Assembly (NCBI GenBank): GCA_016900015.1
Contig: JACJJM010000009.1
Span: forward strand, 57,526 to 121,525
Source of the DNA: Phocaeicola coprophilus
GTDB taxonomy: Bacteria; Bacteroidota; Bacteroidia; Bacteroidales; Bacteroidaceae
Length of the DNA: 64,000 bases
Direction: 5' to 3'
Below the pieces are notes generated by a model. It was not told the DNA's origin. It was given only the letters and a program-made list of their open reading frames with translations, and searched no databases. Below, one piece after another: positions 30,421-42,828 of the stretch. The translations under genes were made by a program, and so were the position numbers. The stretch's first letter is position 1, and each line of letters begins with the position of its first letter.

Positions 30421-30477
30421 ACTAACAGGATTGTAATGCAGATGTAACCCCGACGTAACGCCTAAGCACGTCCTTTG
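30421..30477 (+). promoter_or_regulatory. Pho-box-like array and promoter of the metallophosphoesterase
   Basis: ACTAAC (30421), TGTAAT (30432), TGTAAC (30443) and CGTAAC (30454) are spaced exactly 11 bp start to start. Ten bases then separate the last repeat from GTCCTTTG (30470-30477), a weak -7 box. Direct repeats at 11-bp pitch just upstream of a weak core promoter are how PhoB-type activators work in other bacteria. The same geometry occurs upstream of 42742. Confidence 0.6.
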
Positions 30478-30514: not shown

Positions 30515-31960
30515 ATGAACAAACAAACGATTGTCAAATCATTCGCTTTCGGCCTGGCCTTCTTCAGCCTGTGCCTCGAAGCATCTGCACAAACATCTCT
30601 ATTTGACTTCACGGGAAAAGTGGTCGACCAGTCAGGACGGGGCATTGCCGGCGTCGTGGTGAACGACGGTGTGCATTTCACCCGTACAGACCGTCAGGGT
30701 GCGTGGAAACTTTCGTCCGACACGGTCGTAAGCAAGTTTGTCAGCATTTCCACTCCCTCGGCCTATCAGTTGCCACAACATGAAGGCTTGGCCGACGGGT
30801 TTTATGTTTCCGTGGGACAACTGGTTGCCAAGGGCAACAAGCATGACTTCACGTTGGAGAAGCGTGCCGATGCGAAAGACAGCTTTTACTACATCGCCAT
30901 CTCAGACCCGCAGGTGCGCAATGCCGCCGAGATGAAGCGCTGGCGTCAGGAAGCCGTGCCCGACATCTGCGAAACCATCGACTCGCTGAAGCAAAGCCGT
31001 GAGGTGGTGGCCATGACCTTGGGCGACCTGGTGTTTGACAACATGGGGCTTTATCCTGAATACAAGGAATCGGTGAAAAACACGGGTGCGACGTTCTTCC
31101 AGTGTATCGGCAACCACGACTTCGACCTGCGCTATCAGGACTTGCACAACATGGAGGCCGGCACGCCGGTGTATGGTGAAATCAACTATTACGGCTATTT
31201 CGGCCCGACGGATTATTCCTTCAACATCGGCCGCGCGCACATCGTGACGATGAAGAATCTCAATTATGTCAGCAACAAGAAATATATCGAGGCGCTCACC
31301 GGCGCACAGCTCGCATGGCTTAAAAAGGACCTGAGCTATGTGCCCAAAGGCAGTCTGGTCATCCTCAACATGCATGCCGCTTCGTGGAACAAGAACGGGA
31401 AGGATGGCAACATCCGTAATGCGGCAGCCTTGCAAGAGGTGTTGAAGGACTACAACGTGCATGTGTTCTGCGGTCATACTCATTTCTTGCAGAACAACGA
31501 AGTCACCCCGACGCTCTATGAACACAACATCGGTGCTGCCTGTGGTGCATGGTGGGCCGGATGGGTCAACCAATGCGGTGCGCCGAACGGCTACATCGTG
31601 GTCGATGTCGACGGTGACAACTTGAAGTGGCACTATAAAGGCACACGCCGCGATTTCTCTTACCAGTTCCGCCTCTACAATAAAGGTGAGTTCCCGACGC
31701 AGAGCAGCTTCGTGGTGGCCAATGTATGGGATTGGGACAGTGCATGGCGTGTGGTGTGGTATCAGGATGGAAAGCTCATGGGCGACATGGAGCAGTTTGT
31801 CGACCGCGATGCCGAGCGTGCGTCGCAGGTGAAGAACATCGCCAAAGTGCCCCTGACCGGTCACCTCTTCCGTGCTATGCCGGCCGATGGTGCCAAGGAA
31901 ATCAAAGTGGAGGCGACCAACCGCTTCGGGGAAGTCTTCACGCAGGTGATTAAGTTGTAA
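30515..31960 (+). CDS. Secreted calcineurin-like metallophosphoesterase
   Basis: This 481-aa exported protein has a signal peptide (about 1-25, ending EASA). An N-terminal beta-sandwich (about 30-117: FTGKVVDQSGRGIAGVVVND) is followed by a metallophosphoesterase domain. Metal-binding motifs are SDPQV (Asp131), GDL (170-172), GNHD (199-202), NMHAASW and GHTH (about 319-322), so both metal sites look complete. A C-terminal beta domain (about 390-481) ends AMPADGAKEIKVEATNRFGEVF. It should hydrolyse phosphoesters outside the cytoplasm. The Pho-box-like array upstream suggests induction by phosphate limitation. A terminator follows. Confidence 0.9.
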   Translation: MNKQTIVKSFAFGLAFFSLCLEASAQTSLFDFTGKVVDQSGRGIAGVVVNDGVHFTRTDRQGAWKLSSDTVVSKFVSISTPSAYQLPQHEGLADGFYVSVGQLVAKGNKHDFTLEKRADAKDSFYYIAISDPQVRNAAEMKRWRQEAVPDICETIDSLKQSREVVAMTLGDLVFDNMGLYPEYKESVKNTGATFFQCIGNHDFDLRYQDLHNMEAGTPVYGEINYYGYFGPTDYSFNIGRAHIVTMKNLNYVSNKKYIEALTGAQLAWLKKDLSYVPKGSLVILNMHAASWNKNGKDGNIRNAAALQEVLKDYNVHVFCGHTHFLQNNEVTPTLYEHNIGAACGAWWAGWVNQCGAPNGYIVVDVDGDNLKWHYKGTRRDFSYQFRLYNKGEFPTQSSFVVANVWDWDSAWRVVWYQDGKLMGDMEQFVDRDAERASQVKNIAKVPLTGHLFRAMPADGAKEIKVEATNRFGEVFTQVIKL

Positions 31961-37572: not shown

Positions 37573-38559
37573 TCACTCGTGCCTCTTTTTCCCGAATTCG
37601 TAGATGACGTAGCCCTCGTAGTTGATGAACCAGAAGTGAAGCTCTTCAGGGGTGAGTGCGCAGGCGATGAACCCTTCGGCCGGACTGCAGAACAGCGTGC
37701 CTTCACCGGCCTTGTCGTCGACGGGGCGTGCCAGCGAGGCGGAAGAGTTGATGATGTAGTCCATCTCGGTGCCCAGCTTGCGGATGTGCTGGAACGTGTG
37801 GCAGTGTCCGCTGAAGTAGAAGTCCACATGATGCTTGCGCAGGATGGGGTCGAGGCGTTTCACGAGGTCGGGGTTGTCGCCATAGCCGAGGCTGTTGTTC
37901 GAGTAAATCTGGTGATGACCCACGACGATGGTCCACGTTTCATGCGAAGCCGTCAGCGTGCTGTCAATCCAAGCCAGTTGCCGGTCGGCGTCTTGTGCCG
38001 CCACGTCGGGGTATTTCTCCGGATTGTGCCGGTATTTCTCTTGCAGCGGTGTGGTGTCGATGAACACCAGTCGCAGGGTGTTTGCCGAGTCCAGGCGCAT
38101 CACCTTGGTGTAATATCGCGCCGGCATCTTCCAACGGCGGCTCTTGTGCGAATAGTCCATCACGGCCTGCGAATTGCCGTCATACTCGTGGTTGCCCATG
38201 ACGGGATACCAGTAGCAGAAGAGGTCGGGGTGCGGGTAGATGTTCTCGAAGCCGCTGACCCACTGCGGGTCGTCGACGCTCTCGATGCCCGTGCCGTGAA
38301 AGGTGTCGCCACTGTCGATGACAAAGGACGGCATCACCGTCTGGGCCAGTTCGCCCATCTTTTCGCCCACCTTCTTTTGTTGGTAGAAGCCGTTCCGGCC
38401 CGAGTCGGATATCCAGAAGAAGCACAGTTGCTTTCGGCTGCCTTTGGCCCACACGGTGCTTAGCGAATAGGGCTCGCCTGCCATGCAGAACGCGCAGCAG
38501 ACAAGGAAGAGGGCCATGAGAAGGCTCCTCTTCCGGGTGTTTGTCTTGTTGGTTGTCAT
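37573..38559 (-). CDS. Secreted purple-acid-phosphatase-like metallophosphoesterase
   Basis: This 328-aa exported enzyme has a signal peptide (about 1-28, CCAFCMAGE). The motif set follows mammalian-type purple acid phosphatases: WISDSGR (Asp52), IDSGDTFHGTG (Asp85, with His following), MGNHEY (122-126), VVGHHQIYS and FSGHCHTFQH. These supply the two metal ions and phosphate-binding histidines. It should release phosphate from organic esters in the periplasm or at the surface. It is the last gene of the TonB receptor/beta-helix operon, 19 bp after the beta-helix gene. Confidence 0.9.
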   Translation of the reverse strand: MTTNKTNTRKRSLLMALFLVCCAFCMAGEPYSLSTVWAKGSRKQLCFFWISDSGRNGFYQQKKVGEKMGELAQTVMPSFVIDSGDTFHGTGIESVDDPQWVSGFENIYPHPDLFCYWYPVMGNHEYDGNSQAVMDYSHKSRRWKMPARYYTKVMRLDSANTLRLVFIDTTPLQEKYRHNPEKYPDVAAQDADRQLAWIDSTLTASHETWTIVVGHHQIYSNNSLGYGDNPDLVKRLDPILRKHHVDFYFSGHCHTFQHIRKLGTEMDYIINSSASLARPVDDKAGEGTLFCSPAEGFIACALTPEELHFWFINYEGYVIYEFGKKRHE

Positions 38560-38578: not shown

Positions 38579-39925
38579 TTATTCACCTCCGAATGCTCCG
38601 CAATAGGCAGAGGGAGCGGGCGTATAGTAGGTTCTGCCGTCGATGGTGAGACCGCTGTTGACATAGTGTGCGTGAGAGGCGATTACGCTCGGGTCGGCTC
38701 CTGCGGTCAGGGCACGCGACGAAGCTTTCAGGTGGAAGTCATACGCACTGTCCAGGACGTAGGTCTTTTCTGAAGTGCTCAGGTCATAGGCCACGAATTC
38801 CGGGTCGTTTTCTCCGGCAAGTTTGCCCTTGATGGCGTTTTGCTCGCCTTGCAGCATGCCGGTTCCCTTCTCATCATTGCCTGCGGTCTCCTGATAGCCG
38901 TCGACCATGCTCTGCGTGTAGCCGTAATACCAGTTGTTGCAGGCCACAGCCTGGCGTGCAGGGTCGGTCAGGTCGTTCAGGATACCCCACTTGCAGTTGA
39001 CGATAAGGTTGTTGTAGATGTATGCGTCACATCCGCTTTCGAGGGCGAAGGAGCCGAAGTCGGCGTTGTTCTTGCGTCCGCCTCCGTTGATCACGGTGTT
39101 GTTGAACACCGTGAAGCTGCCCGGCGTGCGGTTGTCCGTAGTGCCGGAGAGTTTGGCGGCGCTGTTGCTCGGGCCGTAGAACAGGTTGTAGGCCAGGTCG
39201 AGGTTGATGCCGGCCTTGAAGTTGACGGCCTCACCGCCTGCTTCGTCGCCTTGTCCTTCAAACACGTTGTTTGTGATAATCATGTTTCCGCCCTGCATGT
39301 AGAGTCCGTCTTGTCCGTTGTTTCGGAATGTGCAGTGCTGAATCACCAGGTTGGTGTTCTGGTCCATCGTGTTGATGGCCGGTACGCCCTTGCCCACGGT
39401 CGACTTGAAGGTGTGTGCCGAGTAGGAGTTGTTGGTGGTCAGTGCGCCGGTATATTCAAACACGGTGTAAAGGAACACCATGTCGGGAGCTTTAGCCTGC
39501 CGGTCGGCGCCGAAGATGCCGCCCCACACGCGCTTGCTGGAGCCGTTCTTCTCAGAGTCGGGCACGGTGAACTGGATTTCGCTTCCTTCCTCGCCGTAGC
39601 AGTAGAGGTCGCCGTAGACCATGATTTCCACAGGCACTTGCTCATTTTTCTCAATGATGACCTTCACGCCCTTTTCGATGGTGAGCGACTCTCCGGCAGG
39701 GATTTCGAAACTGCCTTTCACCGTGACCGTGCTGCCGGCTTTCCACACGCCGCTCACTTGTCCGCCGTTGATGACGGAAGGCTGTTCGCCGTCGGTGTCG
39801 GTCGGTCCTTGTTCGGTTTCTCCTTGTTCGGGGATGATTTGGCTGTCGCTGTCACTGCTGCATGCCGTCGAGGCCAGGCAGAGGCAGGCGGCAAGGGTCC
39901 ACATTAGATAGTTTCTTGTTTTCAT
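38579..39925 (-). CDS. Right-handed parallel beta-helix lipoprotein
   Basis: This 448-aa lipoprotein has signal ASTAC (Cys22) and an Asp/Gly/Glu-rich linker. From about residue 60 it consists of short repeating coils such as VTVKGSFEIPAGESLTIEKG, NLVIQHCTFRNNGQDGLYMQ, MIITNNVFEGQGDE and YIYNNLIVNCKWGI. This is typical of right-handed parallel beta-helix proteins that bind or cleave polymers. No catalytic site can be assigned. In this operon it occupies the place a SusD-like binding protein would have beside the TonB receptor. The end contains DGRTYYTPAPSAYCGAFGGE. Confidence 0.82.
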   Translation of the reverse strand: MKTRNYLMWTLAACLCLASTACSSDSDSQIIPEQGETEQGPTDTDGEQPSVINGGQVSGVWKAGSTVTVKGSFEIPAGESLTIEKGVKVIIEKNEQVPVEIMVYGDLYCYGEEGSEIQFTVPDSEKNGSSKRVWGGIFGADRQAKAPDMVFLYTVFEYTGALTTNNSYSAHTFKSTVGKGVPAINTMDQNTNLVIQHCTFRNNGQDGLYMQGGNMIITNNVFEGQGDEAGGEAVNFKAGINLDLAYNLFYGPSNSAAKLSGTTDNRTPGSFTVFNNTVINGGGRKNNADFGSFALESGCDAYIYNNLIVNCKWGILNDLTDPARQAVACNNWYYGYTQSMVDGYQETAGNDEKGTGMLQGEQNAIKGKLAGENDPEFVAYDLSTSEKTYVLDSAYDFHLKASSRALTAGADPSVIASHAHYVNSGLTIDGRTYYTPAPSAYCGAFGGE

Positions 39926-39958: not shown

Positions 39959-42742
39959 TTAAAGTTTGTAGCGGAGGCCGATCAGGTAAGTCTGTCCGTA
40001 GCGTTCGCGGCTGATGAGGGTGTGCCCGTGCTGTCCCTGCTGGTAGGGCATGTCAGCGTTGATGGCGTCGGCCAGTTTGATGTATTCCTCCATGCGTGTG
40101 TTGAAAAGGTTGTTCACTTTTGCATACACGGTGAAGTGCTTGCCGAAGCTCTTCTCCACGGAGATGTCGCCCTGGACGAAGCCTTTTTGCCAGATGTCGT
40201 TGTCCAGGAACTGCGACACGGAGGAGATGCGGTCGCCCGTGTAGGAAAGGGCAAACTGTGCGTTCAGTCCGTTGCGTGTGCCCTTGTAGAACAAGGAGAG
40301 GTTGGCGATGTGGGCCGACTGTCCGAAGAGGGGACGTTTCTGCTTGGCGGTTATTTGCTCGCCGTCGACCCATCCGGTCTTCTCGGTCTTGATGGACGAG
40401 TGGGTGTATGTGTAGTTTGCTTTCACGCCGAAGCAACGGAAGTATTTGATGACGTCCAGTTCCAGGCCCACGTTGTGCGCCGTGCCGAAGTTGCCCGGCA
40501 TGTAGAACAGGTCTTGAGAGGATTCACCCTCCGGACGTTGCAGGGCATATTCGATAGGGTCCTGGATGCGTTTGTAGAACACACCGCACATCAACTGTTC
40601 CGTTGGAGACGGGAACCACTCGTAGCGCAGGTCCACGTTGTCAATGGTCGCGTGCTTCAGGTTGGGGTTGCCCTTCTCCGTGTAGTCTTCGTTGACAATG
40701 GTGTAGGGCACCATCTCGAAGTAGCTTGGGCGGTTGATGGAGCGGAAGTAAGACAGCCGCAGGTGTTGCTCTTTCGTAAGGTTGTACTTGAAGTGCAGGC
40801 TCGGCAACCAGTCAGTGTAGACGGAGCTTCCGTCGGGGACGCGCAGCGACTCGATGGGGCTTTGGTATTTCAGGGCATAGCCTTGGTCCGTGTGTTCCAT
40901 GCGGACACCTCCCACCACCTGCCAACGCTTGCCTTGCAGGTCAAACTGCACATAGGCCGCTCCGATGTTTTCGTGGGCGTCGTAGGTCAGGGCGTTGCTG
41001 GCCGAGCCTTGCGGGTTGTACACGTCCAGCGGGATGTTGGAGAAGTCCGTGAAATCCACGCCGTAGACCAGTACGTTGGGTGTCCCCTCCCGATTGGTGA
41101 ACCAGTATTCGTTGTTGAAGTTCGAGCGCTTCTTGTTGCGGTACATGCCTCCTGCGCTCAGCTCCAGTTTCCGGTGATGCTCCAGCTTCATGCGGTAGCT
41201 CACATTGAGGTAGCCGGAATAGTCCTTGTCGTCGCTGTGTTCCCAGCGGCGGGAGATGGAGGGACTGTTGCCGAAGGTGATTTCCTGTGGTTGCAGCACG
41301 CCGTCCACAGTGTTCCGGCTCATGCTGATTTGTGCGTTGTCCGGCGTCTCGCCCTTGGCGCGCGAGTAGGAGGCAGTCCAGTCGACATGCCAGTGCTTGT
41401 CAATGCGGTGGTCGCCTTGCAGCGAGGTGTTGAAAATGGTCTGATTCTTGTAGCGCATGCGGAAAGTTTCGCTTCCAATCAGGTTGTCCGGGTCATACCC
41501 GCGGGAGAAACCGGCGACATGCTCGTTGCGGTATTGACTGTTCTGCAGATTGACGAACACATTGGTAAACTCCAGCGAGTGGTGTTTATTGAACTGATAG
41601 TCCAGTTTCCCCAGCACGCCGCTGCGCATCTGGTGTTCGGCAAAAGTGCGTTCTTTCATGTCGCTGATCATGCCCACGGGAGCGGTGCGCGGCGCAGCTG
41701 TGCTGAGTTTCACCCCGCTGTTGCCACGATGGTCGGATTGGAAGCTTCCGGACAGGAGCACTCCCAACTTGTCGTCGAAGAAGCGGTTGCCCACTGTCAG
41801 TCCCGCGTTGATGTTGGGGACGAACGAACGGTGCTTCAGGGAAAGGTTGCTCGTGGAAAATTCACTCATCTGGGCATGATAATCGGAGTCGCTTCCATGC
41901 TTTTCGAAGGGAGTCCGTTTGTCGATGTCGCCCGTGTCGAATCCGATGAAGTCATGGTCTAGGAAGCGTTGGCTGTAGCCTCCTGCGACGTTGGCCGAGA
42001 GCATGAAGCGCGAAGGTGCGTCTTTCATTACCATGTTTACTGTGCCGCCTACGGCATCACCCTCCATCGAAGGAAGCAGGGCCTTAGTGACATCCAGGCG
42101 GTCGAGCATGTCGGCAGGGAAGATGTCGAGTGGAATGTAACGGTTCTTGTTGTCCGGGCTGGGAATTTTGATGCCGTTCACCAATGTGTAGTTATACCGT
42201 TTGTCCATGCCGCGCAGGATGGCATATTGTGCATCGCCGTTGCTGCTACGCTCCATGCTGACGCCCGACACGCGTTGCAACACGTTGGCCACGGTGATGT
42301 CAGGTGAAAGTTCGATGGCGCGGGCACTCACGCTGTTGACCAGCGTGGGAGACTGCATCTCAAACAAGCGGGCGCTCGATTCGGAAGCGCGGTTCCTGCG
42401 GCCCACCACTTCCACCTCGTGCATTATCTCTGCTGAGGGCTTTAGCTTGATGGTCAGCTCATTTGCCCCTTCCCGTTTGGCTTTTGTTAACTCTTTCACT
42501 GTTTTGCCGTAGCCGACATACGAGCACACCAGCTTCAGATGGTCCACCTTTCCGTCATAGCGAATCAGGAAACTGCCGTCAAGCCCTGTGACGGCGCCGA
42601 TGCCGGTACCTTCCAGCATGACCGTGGCTCCGATCAGCGGTTCTCCGTTTCCGGCATCCACCACTTTGCCTTTGACATTCTCAGCCATGCCCATCAGGCA
42701 ATGGCAAGAAAGCACGGCAGCCAATGTTACAATCTTATTCAT
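39959..42742 (-). CDS. TonB-dependent outer-membrane receptor
   Basis: This 927-aa receptor has a signal peptide (about 1-20) and a carboxypeptidase-regulatory-like domain (about 22-105: VKGKVVDAGNGEPLIGATVM). The plug (about 125-245) has VTVANVLQRVSGVSMERSSN-type text and DGNTV-like MEGDAVGGTVNMVMKD, and the barrel ends YGQTYLIGLRYKL. It lacks the SusC-specific box and no SusD follows, so it resembles ordinary TonB receptors. With the phosphatase and beta-helix genes behind it and a Pho-box-like promoter, import of a phosphate ester or released phosphate is inferred. Confidence 0.93.
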   Translation of the reverse strand: MNKIVTLAAVLSCHCLMGMAENVKGKVVDAGNGEPLIGATVMLEGTGIGAVTGLDGSFLIRYDGKVDHLKLVCSYVGYGKTVKELTKAKREGANELTIKLKPSAEIMHEVEVVGRRNRASESSARLFEMQSPTLVNSVSARAIELSPDITVANVLQRVSGVSMERSSNGDAQYAILRGMDKRYNYTLVNGIKIPSPDNKNRYIPLDIFPADMLDRLDVTKALLPSMEGDAVGGTVNMVMKDAPSRFMLSANVAGGYSQRFLDHDFIGFDTGDIDKRTPFEKHGSDSDYHAQMSEFSTSNLSLKHRSFVPNINAGLTVGNRFFDDKLGVLLSGSFQSDHRGNSGVKLSTAAPRTAPVGMISDMKERTFAEHQMRSGVLGKLDYQFNKHHSLEFTNVFVNLQNSQYRNEHVAGFSRGYDPDNLIGSETFRMRYKNQTIFNTSLQGDHRIDKHWHVDWTASYSRAKGETPDNAQISMSRNTVDGVLQPQEITFGNSPSISRRWEHSDDKDYSGYLNVSYRMKLEHHRKLELSAGGMYRNKKRSNFNNEYWFTNREGTPNVLVYGVDFTDFSNIPLDVYNPQGSASNALTYDAHENIGAAYVQFDLQGKRWQVVGGVRMEHTDQGYALKYQSPIESLRVPDGSSVYTDWLPSLHFKYNLTKEQHLRLSYFRSINRPSYFEMVPYTIVNEDYTEKGNPNLKHATIDNVDLRYEWFPSPTEQLMCGVFYKRIQDPIEYALQRPEGESSQDLFYMPGNFGTAHNVGLELDVIKYFRCFGVKANYTYTHSSIKTEKTGWVDGEQITAKQKRPLFGQSAHIANLSLFYKGTRNGLNAQFALSYTGDRISSVSQFLDNDIWQKGFVQGDISVEKSFGKHFTVYAKVNNLFNTRMEEYIKLADAINADMPYQQGQHGHTLISRERYGQTYLIGLRYKL

Positions 42743-42771: not shown

Positions 42772-42828
42772 CAAAAGTCCCAAGCCAAAATTACATTGTC
42801 ATTACCCACTAATAACAAACGCATTACA
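42772..42828 (-). promoter_or_regulatory. Pho-box-like array and promoter of the TonB receptor operon
   Basis: On the minus strand, TGTAAT (828-823), TGTTAT (817-812), GGTAAT (806-801) and TGTAAT (795-790; all in 42 kb) repeat every 11 bp. Ten bases then lead to GACTTTTG (779-772), a -7-like box 29 bp before the ATG. Repeat pitch, sequence and spacing to the -7 box are the same as upstream of the metallophosphoesterase at 30515. Confidence 0.62.

Follow-up and report, generated by a model that had tools for sequence, protein, structure and literature searches.

A predicted Pho-box promoter before a TonB receptor and phosphoesterase operon of Phocaeicola coprophilus

The closest described counterpart of the element reported here is the Pho box of Escherichia coli, which is built of 11-nt direct repeat units with well conserved and less conserved parts, and which the PhoB effector domain binds head to tail (PMC4415409). 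PhoB sites overlap the -35 element (PMC3348028), models support strict spacing, and pst, phoA and phoBR are activated by PhoB (PMC10294691). We examined six E. coli upstream regions, with -10 hexamers assigned from the fit, and found that in strain K-12 the arrangement TGTCAY-N5-TGTCAY-spacer-hexamer fits best at a spacer of 10 before phoB, phoA and pstS. At pstS it is the distal pair that gives the best fit, and the proximal pair has four mismatches at spacer 10; at ugpB spacers of 10 and 13 tie, and the upstream regions of phnC and yjdN hold no good match to this arrangement.

Bacteroides fragilis likewise has a PhoB-PhoR system, whose PhoB binds a pst promoter fragment in EMSA and whose phosphatases are induced in low phosphate in a PhoB-dependent manner; a Pho-box sequence or spacing was not found in that source, and “TonB” is absent from its main text (PMC3547664). 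In Flavobacterium, PusCD provides outer-membrane TonB uptake beside phosphatases and is induced in low phosphate, and Flavobacterium johnsoniae has, within its PhoBR cluster, the receptor Fjoh_0545 (pf07715, pf13715, pf14905) next to the lipoprotein Fjoh_0546 (IPR011050), both being strongly induced in low phosphate (PMC8115612); the main text of that paper contains neither “Pho box” nor “promoter”. Pho boxes have also been predicted in plcP gene clusters of marine bacteria, with a flavobacterium as one of three test isolates (PMC4796936). The titles and abstract openings found, in a search with subscription journals mostly outside it, announced no Bacteroidota site of the layout described below; a Pho-box promoter is a known kind of element, and a description of its geometry for this family was not met in the literature found.

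The array, its operon and a second site

The window analysed here is a stretch of 64,000 nucleotides of the Phocaeicola coprophilus genome. The element under study has the following parts, read from the sequence; the element as a whole was also recovered with matrices, orthologues and a motif count.

42772..42828, minus strand: whole element, a predicted Pho-box promoter of four 11-bp direct repeats, a 10-bp spacer and a -7 box
42823..42828, minus strand: repeat 1, TGTAAT
42812..42817, minus strand: repeat 2, TGTTAT
42801..42806, minus strand: repeat 3, GGTAAT
42790..42795, minus strand: repeat 4, TGTAAT, 10 bp from the box
42772..42779, minus strand: GACTTTTG, predicted core promoter, with five of the six stated bases of the Bacteroidota -7 consensus TAnnTTTG as quoted in PMC7366714

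From 42828 to 42772 the minus strand reads TGTAAT GCGTT TGTTAT TAGTG GGTAAT GACAA TGTAAT TTTGGCTTGG GACTTTTG, with a pitch of exactly 11 and a spacer of exactly 10, so that the four repeats and the distance to the box are just as the original prediction gave them. In the aligned sites the core columns of the repeats carry most of the information, in keeping with the 11-nt repeat units of a Pho box, and GACTTTTG agrees at five of the six stated bases with the -7 box of the Bacteroidota primary promoter. The -33 TTTG of such promoters is expected 19-21 bp upstream of the -7 box; by eye, no TTTG lies at that distance from GACTTTTG, and the array occupies the place. As at E. coli phoB, phoA and pstS, TGTNAY direct repeats at an 11-bp pitch stand before phosphate genes, and the 10 bp between last repeat and core element equal the spacing at which the E. 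coli repeats best fit a -10-like hexamer. In contrast to E. coli, the core element is the Bacteroidota -7 box TAnnTTTG rather than a sigma-70 -10, the sites aligned here have four repeats, and these prefer TGTAAC or TGTAAT where the E. coli unit is CTGTCAT (PMC4415409).

The array precedes a group of genes on the same strand.

39959..42742, minus strand: TonB-dependent receptor, 927 aa, with Plug, beta-barrel and CarbopepD_reg_2 domains (domain search); start codon 29 bp after the element
38579..39925, minus strand: 448-aa protein with a sub-threshold beta-helix match and a lipoprotein-like start, 33 bp after the receptor gene
37573..38559, minus strand: calcineurin-like phosphoesterase, 328 aa, 19 bp after the beta-helix gene and likely the last gene of the operon

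The beta-helix match of the 448-aa protein reaches 24.8 bits, below the 25.9 cut-off, and the LASTAC in its start is lipoprotein-like by eye. Receptor and beta-helix genes adjoin in all 32 Bacteroidota loci examined for this (L011-L042), and a beta-helix partner was matched in 29 of the 30 receptor-orthologue loci described below, none being seen in L131. By annotation alone, the pair can be likened to Fjoh_0545 and Fjoh_0546, the latter's IPR011050 being the pectin-lyase fold. Unlike PusCD, the receptor scores 68.5 bits against TIGR04056, far below the SusC/RagA cut-off of 368.25, and the domain search gave no SusD match in the gene next to it, so that neither the SusC-class receptor nor the SusD partner of a SusCD/PusCD system is seen here. 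The operon likely serves the uptake and cleavage of organic phosphate.

A second array lies elsewhere in the window.

30421..30477, plus strand: second element, with geometry identical to that of the 42772 site (sequence, matrices, orthologues)
30515..31960, plus strand: calcineurin-like phosphoesterase with MetallophosN and MetallophosC domains, 481 aa (domain search)

Its plus strand reads ACTAAC AGGAT TGTAAT GCAGA TGTAAC CCCGA CGTAAC GCCTAAGCAC GTCCTTTG. The shared geometry claimed for the two sites is borne out in pitch (11), number of repeats (four) and spacer (10), with the first repeat and the box at 30421 being poorer matches. Elsewhere in the genome (L101, C176), a MetallophosN phosphoesterase gene has four upstream repeats with no TTTG box at the fixed place.

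Phosphate genes of the same genome and the sequence background

Because TGTNAY repeats at an 11-bp pitch before phosphatase genes suggested a Pho box, the genome was searched for its phosphate genes. A match to PstS pointed to an operon in which a gene for a beta-barrel porin (Pfam BBP2) comes first and pstS, pstC, pstA and pstB come after it; PstS, PstC and PstA lie above their curated cut-offs and PstB, at 339, just below 343.2. The genome also encodes PhoB and PhoR, both above Bacteroidota-specific curated cut-offs (369 bits against NF053854, cut-off 270, and 646 bits against NF053855, cut-off 500). Three sites, picked by eye with the window geometry in mind, stand before these and a neighbouring gene:

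before porin-pstSCAB: TGTAAC ACGTT TGTCAA ACGTT TACCAT ACTAT TGTAAT ATGCTTAACG GAACTTTG
before phoB-phoR: TGTAAT GAAAT CGTAAT GCAAT TATTAC GTTTT CGTAAT AAAGATGCAA GAACTTTG
before a second TonB receptor (TBDT2), near the pst operon: TGCCAA CCAAT CGTAGG AACTT CGTAGC ACGCA TGTAAC GGCAGTGACG CAACTTTG

All three have a pitch of 11, a spacer of 10 and the same 57-bp layout as the window sites, and the TBDT2 site is kept in two relatives of the same genus. Looser copies precede the PiT, PafA and GlpT genes, so that the layout is found before both the phosphate-acquisition genes and the phoB gene of this genome. Beside the pst site, at L084:8463-8700, lies also a degenerate tandem array with a unit of about 22 bp, twice 11, and cores of TGTAACCG, TGTAGC or TGCAGC.

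Since the layout is common to the organism's own phosphate-transport and phosphate-sensor genes, the repeats are likely a docking site for PhoB. The original prediction left the regulator unnamed, and it is the layout shared with the phoB and pst promoters that points to a Pho box. With high confidence, we thus read 42772-42828 on the minus strand as the combination of a Pho box and a Bacteroidota -7 box, a site predicted from its sequence to be bound by PhoB and to switch on the operon in phosphate starvation.

The original prediction also held that the agreement between the two window sites was unlikely by chance, and within the window this is upheld. A matrix built from five sites outside the window, themselves chosen by eye with its geometry in view, ranks them first and second in the 64 kb, both strands considered: with core columns they score 27.0 and 25.5, against 13.7 for the next place and at most 16.4 in 30 simulated windows, and with all columns 19.7 and 23.1, against 7.7 and 17.4 respectively. 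With a 14-site non-window matrix the 42772 and 30421 sites score 14.3 and 29.3 and the next place in the window -8.1, the set being not fully independent because nine of the 14 are new matches of model R1, which contains the window sites. A motif count of four TGTNAY repeats (at most four mismatches in total) with TTTG at the fixed place has only these two matches in the window.

Genome-wide, R1 recovers exactly its five training sites at E ≤2.1e-6, followed by the PiT gene (0.17), an unrelated place (0.59) and the PafA gene (0.67), among 150 of 421 candidates scored. Of two models made without the window sites, R2 (150 of 436 candidates scored) fails to recover the 42772 site and gives the 30421 site an E of 0.33, with an unrelated place (0.076) ranking above it; R3 (150 of 900 candidates scored) has the 30421 site as its best non-training site (1.2e-4) and the 42772 site at rank 7 (0.0985), with PiT at 0.019, PafA at 0.21, GlpT at 0.25 and unrelated places interspersed. 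At fixed geometry, PiT scores 25.1, GlpT 26.1 and PafA 15.5, and with the full matrix the non-phosphate places L094 (inside a coding frame) and L064 reach 27.5 and 16.1, and L093 reaches 11.4; the simulated genome maximum of 6.5 with the 14-site matrix understates this real background. Because L094 and L064 score as high, score alone is no proof of function, and a genome-wide proof from the array score, with the site missed by R2 and marginal in R3, was rejected; the argument therefore rests on conservation in orthologues and on the shared identity of the genes.

The weak matches of the genome that we judged unrelated or unclear are L092 (cation ATPase), L090 and L062 (epimerase-like), L093, L094, L097, L099 (the L064 place) and L100. 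L094 (C180) is a strong full-layout match within a coding frame; E. coli PhoB likewise has many intragenic sites (PMC10294691).

Conservation among relatives

Of 301 family genomes, 34 (this one among them) carry an orthologue of the receptor, and 30 orthologues were tested, comprising the loci of 29 of the 33 non-own matches and L011 (75% identity). The original prediction had named, as an outcome that would speak against it, orthologous operons that keep the genes and lack the repeats; instead, the array lies directly upstream of the receptor in 29 of the 30, with pitch and spacer unchanged. A matrix from which receptor sites were left out gives a score of at least 10 to 27 of 28 upstream regions and of at least 12 to 26, and at L137 and L153 arrays of 18.7 and 28.4 precede the gene after correction of the start codons. 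At L140 (G185) a phosphatase gene precedes the receptor, and a weak candidate (12.9) lies before that phosphatase gene; being AT-rich and ending about 6 bp before the estimated phosphatase start, it was rejected as a full case. Only one of 934 control windows from the same loci reaches 12, and by its score this is probably the L140 candidate. Over 27 orthologue sites the commonest letters of the box are TACTTTTG. The orthologue sequences are related and so do not represent 30 independent events. A chance likeness of AT-rich hexamers would accord with the marginal genome-wide standing of the 42772 site in the held-out models, but an array directly upstream in 29 of 30 orthologues, set against the single control window in 934, makes this reading exceedingly improbable.

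At pitch 11, 26 of the 28 orthologue regions score at least 12 at spacer 10, and no other spacer between 5 and 15 brings more than 11 of them to that score; for pitches of 9, 10, 12 and 13 the count is at most two of 28. The repeats thus keep a fixed place beside the core promoter element, 10 bp away in the genome's own sites as in these orthologues. This bears on whether the array could instead be a site of repression by PhoB, or an alternative promoter used under a stress unrelated to phosphate, an idea to which the dual role of E. coli PhoB, set by site position (PMC10294691), lends some plausibility. We consider it very unlikely, since the concentration of the orthologue regions at spacer 10 argues against it, as does the 10-bp distance to the core element that is also the best fit at the PhoB-activated phoA, pstS and phoB of E. 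coli. An activating Pho box remains the preferred reading.

The exact layout does not extend across the phylum: at this geometry each of 31 more distant receptor loci (L012-L042) scores below 10, the four with p at the floor of 0.01 included, and phylum-wide occurrence was rejected on this count. By eye, TGTATACG- or GTTCACG-like half-sites, unevenly spaced at about 9-13 bp, precede the related receptor in Pedobacter, Chitinophaga and related organisms (L012-L014, L020-L022, L039), and these rows perhaps represent a different Pho-type box. The floors of the simulated p values are 1/101 for the distant receptors and 1/201 for the phoB, receptor-orthologue and 30515-gene tests.

For the phosphoesterase gene at 30515-31960, nine of 25 other matches (24 in other genomes and one own paralogue) have an array score of at least 10, including all six with at least 72% identity, compared with three of 614 control windows that reach 10; the other 16 of the 25 lack an upstream array. 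The phoB set comprises 24 genes from 23 of 31 genomes, own included. With a matrix trained without phoB, nine of the 24 upstream regions score above 24 and 11 have p ≤0.01; a strong array is absent before 15 of the 24. In 29 regions outside the matrix, namely these 24 and five of the genome's own (the two window sites included), scores of at least 15 occur at pitch 11 only, with a peak at spacer 10 (14 of 29), and when pitch alone is counted at a cut-off of 12, there are 12 regions at pitch 11, one at pitch 14 and none at the others from 7 to 15.

When R1 was run on 151 family genomes (at most 37 candidates scored per genome), 14 genomes matched at E ≤0.001, with the five own sites and 16 others. 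Five of the 16 precede a PhoB-type response regulator (two also matching NF053854, three by Pfam only), three a Na/Pi cotransporter, one a PorinO/P gene, two a receptor of the second type, one another TonB receptor, and one a gene that by eye resembles the porin of the own pst operon and has no Pfam match. The remaining three were unclear and were not counted as support: G017 (before a histidine kinase gene), G098 (reversed, next to a gene that is PiT-like by eye) and G150 (beside a PorinO/P gene).

It is conceivable that another response regulator of the OmpR/PhoB family, with a similar 11-bp direct-repeat site, controls these promoters in place of PhoB. Such repeats may suit further members of the family, and the PhoB model TIGR02154 matches 16 times in the genome, with three full-length matches in addition to phoB itself. 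We regard this as improbable, because the layout stands before phoB and pst and, in own or related genomes, before Na/Pi cotransporter, PorinO/P, PafA and GlpT genes, a set that phosphate control fits best. The idea of a putative regulon of phosphoesterase loci, which the original prediction put forward, is supported by the 29 of 30 orthologues and by the same layout at phoB-phoR, porin-pstSCAB and TBDT2.

A proposed mechanism and its meaning

Over 227 aligned positions, the PhoB of this genome shares 41% identity with E. coli PhoB, and it keeps, near its C-terminus, the segment DRTVDV-I-RLRK, which we take to be the recognition helix. Among solved chains its DNA-binding domain best matches 1gxp, a PhoB effector-domain dimer on pho box DNA (PMC3348028). 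In the mechanism we propose, phosphate starvation would lead PhoB to bind 42772-42828 on the minus strand and turn the operon on. Phosphorylated PhoB molecules would line up head to tail along the repeats, all on one face of the helix, and those on the last repeats, over the place of the missing -33 element, would recruit RNA polymerase to the -7 box, in parallel with E. coli PhoB at the -35. The TonB receptor, the likely beta-helix lipoprotein and the phosphoesterase would then take up and cleave organic phosphate.

On balance, we lean slightly towards a broader reading, in which the receptor and beta-helix lipoprotein form a phosphate-starvation uptake module distinct from SusCD/PusCD, and in which Bacteroidaceae-like carriers control it by a Pho box, the last repeats standing in for the sigma -33 contact, with PhoB driving a different kind of promoter at the 10-bp geometry of E. 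coli.

The sites provide a usable description of a Bacteroidota Pho box, namely four TGTNAY repeats at an 11-bp pitch and 10 bp to TAnnTTTG, and phosphate-starvation genes of relatives can thus be searched for by sequence. The pair of TonB receptor and beta-helix lipoprotein is a probable phosphorus-acquisition system. The shared spacing suggests that one activating geometry of PhoB may have been kept across two phyla with differing core promoters.
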